Assembly (NCBI GenBank): GCA_016125275.1
Contig: WGMB01000003.1
Coordinates: forward strand, 62,001 to 126,000
Length of the DNA: 64,000 nucleotides
Origin: Acidobacteriota bacterium
Lineage (GTDB): Bacteria; Acidobacteriota; Terriglobia; Bryobacterales; UBA6623
Reading direction: 5' to 3'
The notes beneath the pieces were generated by a model. The model saw only the letters and a list, made by a program, of their open reading frames with translations. It did no database searches and was not told the origin of the DNA. Made by a program: the position numbers and the translations under genes. Within the stretch, counting starts at the first letter, position 1. Every line of letters begins with the position of its first letter. Positions 42,933 through 46,579 of this stretch are shown piece by piece.

Positions 42933-43042
42933 CTCACCTGTTCCGCGCTCTCGAGCTCTGCGCTCGCCTGGTCGAGCTCAGCATTCTTTGGGGGTTTCCG
43001 CCTCCGCACGAGGTACAGTCTACCGACCCGCGTCTGCCGTAG
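42929..43042 (+). CDS. Possible 37-residue small protein coupled to the previous one
   Basis: ATGA overlap with the preceding small frame; the product starts [18 protein letters not shown] and ends in a Pro-rich tail. No recognised family. Listed only because of the coupling. Between here and 43063 nothing else is visible. Confidence 0.22.
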
Positions 43043-43062
43043 ACGGCCGCCTCAAAAAGTCC

Positions 43063-43091
43063 TTCGCCCCGAGCTGCGCCGCCTCTACAAT
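43063..43091 (+). promoter_or_regulatory. Predicted promoter of the selenoprotein peroxiredoxin
   Basis: TTCGCC (43063-43068), 17-bp spacer, TACAAT (43086-43091). The transcript would start near 43098 and give a ~39-nt leader containing AGAGGAG 6 nt before the ATG. Confidence 0.4.
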
Positions 43092-43136
43092 GCGAGCGGG
43101 GCCACTGATGGCCCTAGGGATAAAGAGGAGAGGACC

Positions 43137-43652
43137 ATGAGAATGACCCGCAGAGGGGTCCTGGCCGGCCTCGGGGCTCTGGGCGCAATACCAAGCGCCC
43201 AAGCCGCTATAGCGGTCGGAGACAAGGCCCCGGATTTCGAATTGGCCGGAACCAACGGCAAAATGGAGAAACTTTCCGCCTACCGCGGTAAGAAGAACGT
43301 GGTAACGGCGTTCTACCCGAAGGCGTTCACCGGCGGCTGAACGCGCGAAATGACTGCGTACCAGTCTGGTATCGCAAAGTTCGCCGACGCAGATACGGTC
43401 ATCTTCGGCATCAGCACCGACGACCTGGACACCCAAAAGAAGTTCGCCGAATCCCTCAACCTCGAGTTCACTCTCCTCTCGGATGCGGAAGGAAAGGCGG
43501 CTCGGGCCTTCCAAGTGCTGAACGAGAAGAACATGGCGAATCGAACCACGTTCGTCATCGACAAGCAGGGGGTCGTGCAGGAGATCATCTCCGGAGGCGA
43601 CGCCATCTCCATCGACGGCGCTGCGGCGGCCTGTAGCCGGCTGCAGCACTGA
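43137..43652 (+). CDS. Tat-exported selenocysteine-containing peroxiredoxin (TGA read as Sec68)
   Basis: 171 residues when the in-frame TGA at 43338-43340 is read as selenocysteine. N-terminus [22 protein letters not shown] is a Tat signal. The fold then runs unbroken through the [77 protein letters not shown] and [15 protein letters not shown]. The TGA sits exactly at the peroxidatic Cys of the PxxxTxxC motif of BCP/PrxQ-type peroxiredoxins. A SECIS-like hairpin follows. The only Cys is near the end (AAACSRLQH) and may be resolving. It should reduce peroxides outside the cytoplasm. Sel genes are not in the window. Start chosen by AGAGGAG. Confidence 0.9.
43355..43376 (+). promoter_or_regulatory. 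Bacterial SECIS-like hairpin
   Basis: TGCG/CGCA and ACC/GGT arms enclose the loop AGTCT, with unpaired U residues beside the stem. The loop starts 22 nt after the UGA and contains G-U, resembling the AGGUCU loop and bulged U of the E. coli fdhF SECIS. This would direct SelB to recode the UGA at 43338. Confidence 0.6.
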
Positions 43653-45379: not shown

Positions 45380-46579
45380 ATGCAGACGTCTCGACGCCGT
45401 GTACTCCAGGGAGGCTGGCTGGCCTCCCTGGCCAGTTTCTTGCCGGGTTGCGCCGCCGCCCCCTCGAAAAAGCCGACCGTCTACGAGCGGCTGGGCTTGC
45501 GTCCGGTCGTGAACTTTCGCGGGACGATGACCACGCTGGGAGCGTCCAAGCAGTGGCAGGAGTGCTTCGAGGCGCAGGCCGAGGCAGCCAGCGAGTTCAT
45601 CGTGCTGGAGGAGCTGCAAGAGGCCATCGGCGAGCGGTTGGCGAAGCTCTGTGGAACCGAGTACGCGATGGTCTCCACAGGCACCGCCGGCGCCATCGCG
45701 ATCGGCACCTACGCCTGCGTCGCCGGGGACGACCCCAAGAACATCCGCCAGTTGCCGAACCTGGAAGGCATGAAGGATGAGGTGATCATCCAGAAGGTCC
45801 ACCGCATCTCCTACGATCATGCCGTGCGCGGCGCCGGCGTGAAGATCGTAGAAGTAGAGACGGCCGACGAGATGCGTGCCGCCATCAACCCGAAGACGGC
45901 GATGATCTACTGCCTGCCGGGCAACAACGACGACAACGAGTGGGGCGACTGGATCCAACTGCCGGAGATGGTCGCCATCGCCAAGCCCGCCGGCGTGCCG
46001 ATTCTGGCCGACTGCGCCAACTGCCTGCCGCCCTGGGGCAACATCCCGAAGATCGCCGCGACCGGCATCGACTTACTGGCGCTTTCGGGCGGCAAACACA
46101 TGCGGGGACCGCAGTCTGCGGGCATCCTGGCCGGCGACAAGGAGCTCATCCGCAAGGCCGGGCTCAATTCCAGTCCGCACTCGGACTCCCAAGGCCGCCC
46201 CATGAAGGTAGGCCGCGAAGAGATGGTCGCCCTTTGGACGGCCTGCGAGAAGTACGCCGCACTCGACTTTGAGGCGATCGACCGCGAGAATTCGCGCCAA
46301 GCAGACTACCTGATCGAGAACTTGGGCAAGATTCCGGGTCTGCGCGCCGAGAAGCTGCAGTCGGAGCGCATTCGCAAGATGCACCGCCTGGGCGTCTCCT
46401 GGGACGAGGAGAAGATTGGCAAGACCAAGCAGCAGGTCGAGCAGGAGCTGATGGAAGGGGAGCCGCGAATCGCGGTGGCCGGCGGCTACGGACACCACTT
46501 GGTGTTCTGCTGCTTCATGAACGAATCAGGCGAGGAGCAGATCGTCGTCGACCGCATGAAGCAGATCTTCAAGGCCTGA
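45380..46579 (+). CDS. Tat/lipoprotein-exported PLP enzyme of the SelA-like fold
   Basis: 399 residues. The N-terminus SRRRVLQGGWLASLASFLPGCAAAP combines a twin-Arg motif with a lipobox (LPGC). The rest is a PLP-dependent aminotransferase-fold protein of the SelA/DgaE type: VVNFRGTMTTLGAS, YAMVSTGTAGAIAIGTYA, PILADCANCLPPWGNIP and the PLP Lys K239 in LALSGGKHMRGPQSAGIL. Relatives include L-seryl-tRNA(Sec) selenium transferase and glucosaminate-6-phosphate ammonia lyase. Export makes true SelA function very unlikely, as its tRNA substrate is cytoplasmic. It lies 1.7 kb from the selenoprotein gene, probably by chance. Confidence 0.83.
   Translation: MQTSRRRVLQGGWLASLASFLPGCAAAPSKKPTVYERLGLRPVVNFRGTMTTLGASKQWQECFEAQAEAASEFIVLEELQEAIGERLAKLCGTEYAMVSTGTAGAIAIGTYACVAGDDPKNIRQLPNLEGMKDEVIIQKVHRISYDHAVRGAGVKIVEVETADEMRAAINPKTAMIYCLPGNNDDNEWGDWIQLPEMVAIAKPAGVPILADCANCLPPWGNIPKIAATGIDLLALSGGKHMRGPQSAGILAGDKELIRKAGLNSSPHSDSQGRPMKVGREEMVALWTACEKYAALDFEAIDRENSRQADYLIENLGKIPGLRAEKLQSERIRKMHRLGVSWDEEKIGKTKQQVEQELMEGEPRIAVAGGYGHHLVFCCFMNESGEEQIVVDRMKQIFKA

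Follow-up and report, generated by a model that had tools for sequence, protein, structure and literature searches.

A predicted exported selenocysteine peroxiredoxin in an Acidobacteriota genome

The gene, its frame and its homologues

The window, a stretch of 64,000 nucleotides from an Acidobacteriota bacterium (contig WGMB01000003.1), carries a peroxiredoxin gene whose single frame, from the ATG at 43137 to the TGA at 43652, is interrupted solely by a TGA at 43338-43340 (Table 1). Read through, the frame yields a protein of 171 amino acids with selenocysteine (Sec, U) at position 68 and the active site P61KAFT65GGU68TREM. The AhpC-TSA domain (PF00578) matches residues 27-149 and so spans the TGA, aligning 123 residues with 123 profile positions at E = 1e-36 and 126.1 bits (cut-off 26). 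An earlier note made from the sequence alone had placed this TGA at the peroxidatic position and described homology as continuous on both sides in one frame. Both statements hold: the domain match crosses the TGA, and in the alignment to Cys-containing homologues that the note proposed as a check, Cys falls at the TGA site. The segment P61KAFT65GGU68 conforms to the PxxxTxxU motif of Sec peroxiredoxins as given in the available part of PMC13188914. Cys166 is the sole Cys of the protein. An Arg ahead of x-TF recurs among the homologues shown (by eye), and Arg136 presumably serves as the active-site Arg of peroxiredoxins.

Because the gene terminates in a second TGA, the two UGA codons must be told apart within one message. 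Under the standard code two separate ORFs appear, 43137-43340 and 43350-43652, and standard ORF calling plainly breaks a gene of this sort. Opposite the gene lies an antisense open frame of 209 amino acids (43020-43649, minus strand), which is probably a by-product of G+C-rich codon usage.

Table 1. Features of the selenocysteine peroxiredoxin locus (window coordinates)
Feature	Position	Strand	Basis
Probable ribosome-binding site, purine-rich AGAGGAGAGG	43124..43133	+	sequence; inference
Sec peroxiredoxin gene, 171 codons, one internal UGA (Sec), terminal UGA a real stop	43137..43652	+	
Signal peptide with TRR motif, residues 1-23, Tat type by pattern	43137..43205	+	sequence
In-frame UGA, Sec68, peroxidatic residue of P61xxxT65xxU68	43338..43340	+	homologues carry Cys at this position
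Bacterial SECIS-like hairpin GCGUACC-AGUCU-GGUA(U)CGC, loop 43363-43367, bulged U 43372	43356..43375	+	
Arg136 codon (NRTTF), probable active-site Arg	43542..43544	+	sequence; homologues by eye
Cys166 codon, candidate resolving residue	43632..43634	+	sequence

The protein belongs to the known TxxU type of Sec peroxiredoxins (PF00578, COG1225), with which it shares the domain, the PxxxTxxU motif, the UGA at the peroxidatic position and a downstream bacterial SECIS; structurally it is nearest to BCP/AhpE and is not a classical PrxQ. The nearest entries by sequence (3drn, 1.5e-24) as well as by fold (TMq 0.79-0.82, 34-37% identity in Foldseek) are Sulfolobus Bcp1 and Bcp4 and Mycobacterium AhpE (3drn, 3hjp, 1xxu), which we take to have been solved as ordinary peroxiredoxins without Sec. 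NF040737, the model of PrxU from Eubacterium acidaminophilum, likewise a selenocysteine peroxiredoxin, matches at 1.4e-15 and 57.7 bits against a cut-off of 270 for its profile of 233 positions. PrxQ/BCP proteins are alike in fold and size, but the window protein scores below the cut-offs of their models (PRK09437, 84.7 against 140 bits; NF053650, 75.4 against 260 bits), and at the position five residues after the peroxidatic residue, where PrxQ has its resolving Cys, it carries Thr73. None of the 15 matching NCBIfam models reaches its cut-off for this protein. Since the curated models score well under their cut-offs, the label "PrxQ/BCP-type" that the gene had been given is a loose one, apt for the structural neighbourhood of BCP and AhpE and not for classical PrxQ.

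In 43 of 61 genomes drawn from the window's own genome, its family and its order (own genome included), the top-scoring homologue carries TGA at the corresponding site; all 43 were translated. Second TGA copies in four genomes (L069-L072) bring this set to 47 TGA rows; their active site reads EAL(T/S)GG-U, and L072 has Gly, not Thr, after Sec. Close Cys forms are found in relatives (L052, L053, L054, L085, L086), and the same genome holds a Cys paralogue with an intact frame and 54% identity (L068, G000:C3:13670-14179). A draw across the phylum gave matches of 1e-25 or better in 53 of 199 genomes, and the 29 loci examined there besides the window gene comprise 27 with TGA and two with Cys at the site. 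The nearest named homologues (L028, L029) come from Acidobacteriales and Vicinamibacteria MAGs, and named TGA records from a Planctomycetaceae MAG (L030) and a Deltaproteobacteria MAG (L031). All row counts leave out L036 and L037, thioredoxin-like sequences of 25-27% identity, and L098, a PrxQ-like Cys gene of the window's own genome. On a tree of the 76 TGA and 17 Cys rows, built with the site masked, the Sec/Cys label needs at least seven changes, five of them forced by well-supported branches, and the tree counts these changes without giving their direction.

The sequence on either side of the TGA is under purifying selection. Nei-Gojobori dN/dS ranges from 0 to 0.41 after the TGA in nine of ten pairs (those computable) and from 0 to 0.21 before it in eight pairs, dS being saturated in one or both parts in two pairs. 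Several pairs have a higher ratio after the UGA than before, and these ranges indicate that the C-terminal part evolves somewhat faster. Decay of the downstream sequence in TGA-bearing relatives, which the earlier note had named as a sign against a selenoprotein, is thus not what the downstream part records.

The hairpin downstream of the UGA

The AGTCT loop (43363-43367) occupies nucleotides 26-30, with the T of the TGA as number 1, and is closed by GCGTACC (43356-43362) and GGTA-T-CGC (43368-43375). The hairpin, which had been proposed from the sequence and is indeed present, starts about 16 nt downstream of the UGA, and its small apical loop AGUCU contains a G, as expected of a bacterial SECIS. 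As evidence for it, the window's own fold is weak: five segments gave z-scores of -0.4 to -2.1, and although the AGUCU hairpin can be located, the best fold of the 39-nt segment is a different hairpin. The comparative evidence is strong. The pairs that close the loop (positions 23-25 with 31-33) occur in all 47 TGA rows from the window's genome, its family and its order, in 22 of the 27 TGA rows of the phylum draw and in neither named TGA row (L030, L031), and they occur in none of the 17 Cys rows (9 + 2 + 6). Since L032-L035, L091-L093 and L129 are distant Cys rows, the missing hairpin says little there; the fair comparison is with the eight Cys rows that share the C-terminal Cys described below, and none of these has it. 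Seven of the 76 UGA rows (L030, L031, L120, L122, L128, L130, L131) are without the hairpin in the common register, and should they be selenoproteins, they must use SECIS elements of another form.

Around the loop the pairs are kept partly through compensatory changes. In the covariation alignment (A1; 47 rows, 45 distinct, with L030 and L031 outside) 88.9% of the cells in the six-pair helix are paired, and its covariation is 0.264 against 0.145 when shuffled, neither value being reached in any of 500 shuffles, and the covariation is lower in all six slid versions of the helix (0.006-0.145). Two of the five measures stand out less: four pairs changed on both sides, a number reached by 12 of 500 shuffles, and seven further pair types were found, a number that 38 of 500 shuffles attained. 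The +1 slide has more doubly changed cells than the proposed register (19 against 15), and 23 of the 45 rows leave the outermost pair, 20-36, open.

The third base of a Tyr codon is also coupled to a Gly or Asp codon across the stem. In 65 rows we counted 41 TAC-Gly, 22 TAT-Asp, 2 TAT-Gly and 0 TAC-Asp (p = 2e-15; the next best among 20 third-base sites, p = 0.005), the other 11 of the 76 TGA rows having no Tyr or no Gly/Asp at the two codons. Each of the two traits changes five times on the tree. A kinship-aware test yielded three well-supported independent pairs, of which two agree and none opposes in most draws; as there are just three supported pairs, kinship-corrected significance was missed. 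The coupling suggests that the RNA hairpin beneath constrains a protein residue.

Selenocysteine machinery and the reading of the UGA

The genome from which the window was taken (G000; 7.55 Mb, 20 contigs, 97.6% complete) encodes the full set of selenocysteine factors whose presence the earlier note had wished to see checked. SelA scores 494.9 bits (contig C1) and SelD 308.9 bits, and SelB matches at 314.8 bits over model positions 1-341 with a further C-terminal match at 540-578, both within one 760-amino acid open frame in which model positions 342-539 are unmatched. A tRNA-Sec scores 72.3 bits (gathering score 47) and has the anticodon TCA according to ARAGORN. A PF00578 search of this genome returned 26 matches, four with one in-frame TGA; besides the window gene these are three others with recognisable Sec motifs, and so the Sec system probably serves more than this one gene.

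Among the 61 genomes SelB is above cut-off in 51, and we counted as positive also G020 (64% complete), in which SelB lies in two fragments. The TGA form of the gene is present in 43 of the 52 SelB-positive genomes and in none of the nine SelB-negative ones (Fisher p = 2.8e-6, kinship ignored); in nine SelB-positive genomes the best match is not the TGA form. Two possible counter-examples in SelB-negative genomes did not stand: a peroxiredoxin-like match in G032 ends at its TGA as a natural stop and has Cys at the site, and in G021 the TGA falls ahead of the start. Thus neither of the two low-scoring TGA matches of SelB-negative genomes, among the matches listed, has a TGA at the active site. 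The tRNA-Sec family gathering score is reached by 54 of the 61 genomes, some SelB-negative ones at 47-50 bits, and by 5 of 14 controls, and for this reason we drew our own line at 60 bits. Above it lie 49 of the 61 genomes; below it are the nine SelB-negative genomes, G034, G018 and G020, of which G018 (81% complete) and G020 carry the UGA form without a tRNA-Sec match above that line. The sharpest comparison is within one genus. G027 has the TGA, SelB and the hairpin, whereas G028 has TGC, no hairpin, no SelB over cut-off and no tRNA-Sec above 60 bits, and the two copies (L080, L085) are sisters in the tree with a support of 99.

That the gene is a peroxiredoxin pseudogene decaying behind a premature stop, perhaps with re-initiation at ATG 43350 to give a 100-amino acid fragment, would fit the two ORFs of the standard code, and the intact Cys paralogue could cover the function. 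This is strongly contradicted by the recurrence of the stop at this position across 43 of 61 genomes, by the purifying selection downstream and by the covarying hairpin, and a fragment starting at residue 72 would be left with neither the active site nor the first three strands of the structural model; we reject it as highly improbable. Nor do we accept that the UGA is read as Trp or Cys, through a variant code or general readthrough. Some lineages do recode UGA, and the frame is open either way, but the gene's own stop is a UGA (relatives end in UAA, UAG or UGA), the aligned residue in the examined non-UGA rows is Cys, the UGA form goes with SelB and the hairpin with the UGA, so that such a reading has very little chance of being right. 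Taken together, the machinery, the association of codon with SelB, the hairpin that follows the TGA, the contrast between G027 and G028 and the selection on the downstream part make this a real selenoprotein gene by every computational test applied, one very probably predicted correctly to incorporate Sec.

Export, peroxide reduction and relation to known selenoproteins

By eye, the N-terminus of the window protein has T-R-R, a hydrophobic stretch and an AxA-like end. The S/T-R-R pattern followed by a hydrophobic stretch recurs in all 14 rows L038-L051, that is, the window protein and its 13 closest matches, and is found in four of the 61 other TGA rows with a callable start. N-termini in the wider clade are mostly plain signal-like (by eye). 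The sequences suggest that export of the clade in general is likely, and likewise the Tat route in the window's branch only; the Tat signal claimed earlier suits the window protein and its closest matches, the wider clade having mostly ordinary signal-like N-termini.

AlphaFold2, run on nine sequences, returned a peroxiredoxin fold (pLDDT 88.2, pTM 0.81) in which the signal peptide is of low confidence (residues 1-14 and 16-22 under 50) and the very end of lower confidence. A Cys in the C-terminal stretch is present in 72 of 76 TGA rows, the others being L030, L031 (cut by the contig end), L128 and L130, and in eight of 17 Cys rows. This pattern makes Cys166 a likely resolving residue for oxidised Sec. 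In the mechanism we propose, SelB with Sec-tRNA(UCA) would read the UGA as Sec under the direction of the hairpin, and the protein, with its twin-arginine-type signal, would act outside the cytoplasmic membrane. There the Sec68 selenolate would attack H2O2 or organic peroxides and become a selenenic acid, which Cys166 in the C-terminal helix could resolve as an Se-S bond; a hypothetical thioredoxin-like protein of the envelope may then reduce that bond. We put the probability of this whole reading, an exported Sec peroxiredoxin with hairpin-directed SelB decoding and peroxide reduction resolved by Cys166, at roughly 0.93.

Two alternatives bear on its later steps. The enzyme might work with Sec alone, an external thiol reducing the selenenic acid and Cys166 being structural, or it might be a thiol/selenol oxidase or sensor of the envelope. 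The nearest structures include the 1-Cys AhpE, nine Cys rows out of 17, those more distantly related, have no C-terminal Cys, and no redox partner adjoining the gene was found in the flanks of 93 family loci; the presence of that Cys in nearly all UGA rows, and its being the only Cys of the window protein, speak against this, and we consider it unlikely, though a serious contender. Less likely still is export by the general secretory route, or anchoring in the membrane, in place of Tat. The RR pattern is absent from 57 of the 61 other UGA rows, including same-family second copies (L069-L072) and the G005, G007 and G009 copies (L084, L078, L075), which the tree places among the order rows, and it is no proof of Tat since an RR signal can still use the general route; against this stands its uniform presence in L038-L051. 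As to neighbours, none of the 14 shared-neighbour clusters listed contains a neighbour of the window gene, and the commonest shared neighbours in its family, named by eye, are an Ffh-like GTPase and a thiolase-like gene.

Sec peroxiredoxins are established as a family; the traits that merit attention here are the export and the Cys near the C-terminus. E. coli formate dehydrogenase N (FdnG), an unrelated molybdoenzyme, is likewise a selenoprotein exported by Tat, and to call such a combination unusual, as the earlier note did, was an overstatement. The Sec content of Fdh-N is reported in PMC3636253. In the accessible parts of the respective reports, the Sargasso Sea set contains 43 TxxU Sec peroxiredoxins, filed under COG1225 (PMC1088965), the 2006 survey of bacterial selenoproteomes has 12 and credits Acidobacteria with three selenoprotein families and four proteins without giving their names (PMC1794560), and GOS has 253 (PMC2398784); a 2026 review lists them too (PMC13188914). 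Judged by these published descriptions, as far as available, the window protein appears to be set apart by its added signal peptide and conserved C-terminal Cys. The same portions of the four sources (PMC1088965, PMC1794560, PMC2398784, PMC13188914) yielded no mention of exported Sec peroxiredoxins, and an exported branch recurring in many genomes of one phylum seems, on that basis, not to have been singled out before.

Tentatively, and at somewhat less than even odds for the conjunction, all of this may amount to a phylum-wide branch of exported Sec peroxiredoxins in the envelope of probable soil Acidobacteriota, lying below every NCBIfam cut-off, self-resolved through an Se-S bond to the C-terminal Cys, exported in folded form through Tat among the window protein's nearest relatives and with ordinary signals in the rest, and marked by several Sec/Cys exchanges, one of them in a sister pair that differs by presence or absence of the whole Sec machinery. 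If peroxides are indeed fought outside the cytoplasm with the help of selenium, the supply of this element would be linked to how well a probably common group of soil bacteria withstands envelope stress. The family is also a natural experiment, with Sec and Cys forms in closely related genomes with and without SelB.

Further loci came to light in passing. In the window's genome, L100 (G000:C9:109026-109235) and L101 (G000:C7:81230-81433) have an in-frame TGA in GSYT-U-PPF, a motif familiar from iodothyronine deiodinases, and a hydrophobic N-terminal stretch (by eye), and L099 (G000:C20:333764-334159) is peroxiredoxin-like with an in-frame TGA in RSADW-U-PYC, of the UxxC type. A distinct PrxQ-like gene with an in-frame TGA, DTPG-U-TKQVC, is present in a SelB-positive relative (L134, G049:C525). 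Finally, 2 kb from the selenoprotein gene the window encodes an apparently exported SelA-like PLP protein (45380-46579, plus strand) with matches to Aminotran_5 (40.1 bits) and SelA (PF03841, 31 bits) and a Tat- or lipoprotein-like N-terminus (by eye); given that the strong SelA match lies on contig C1, it is probably a non-Sec relative of SelA.
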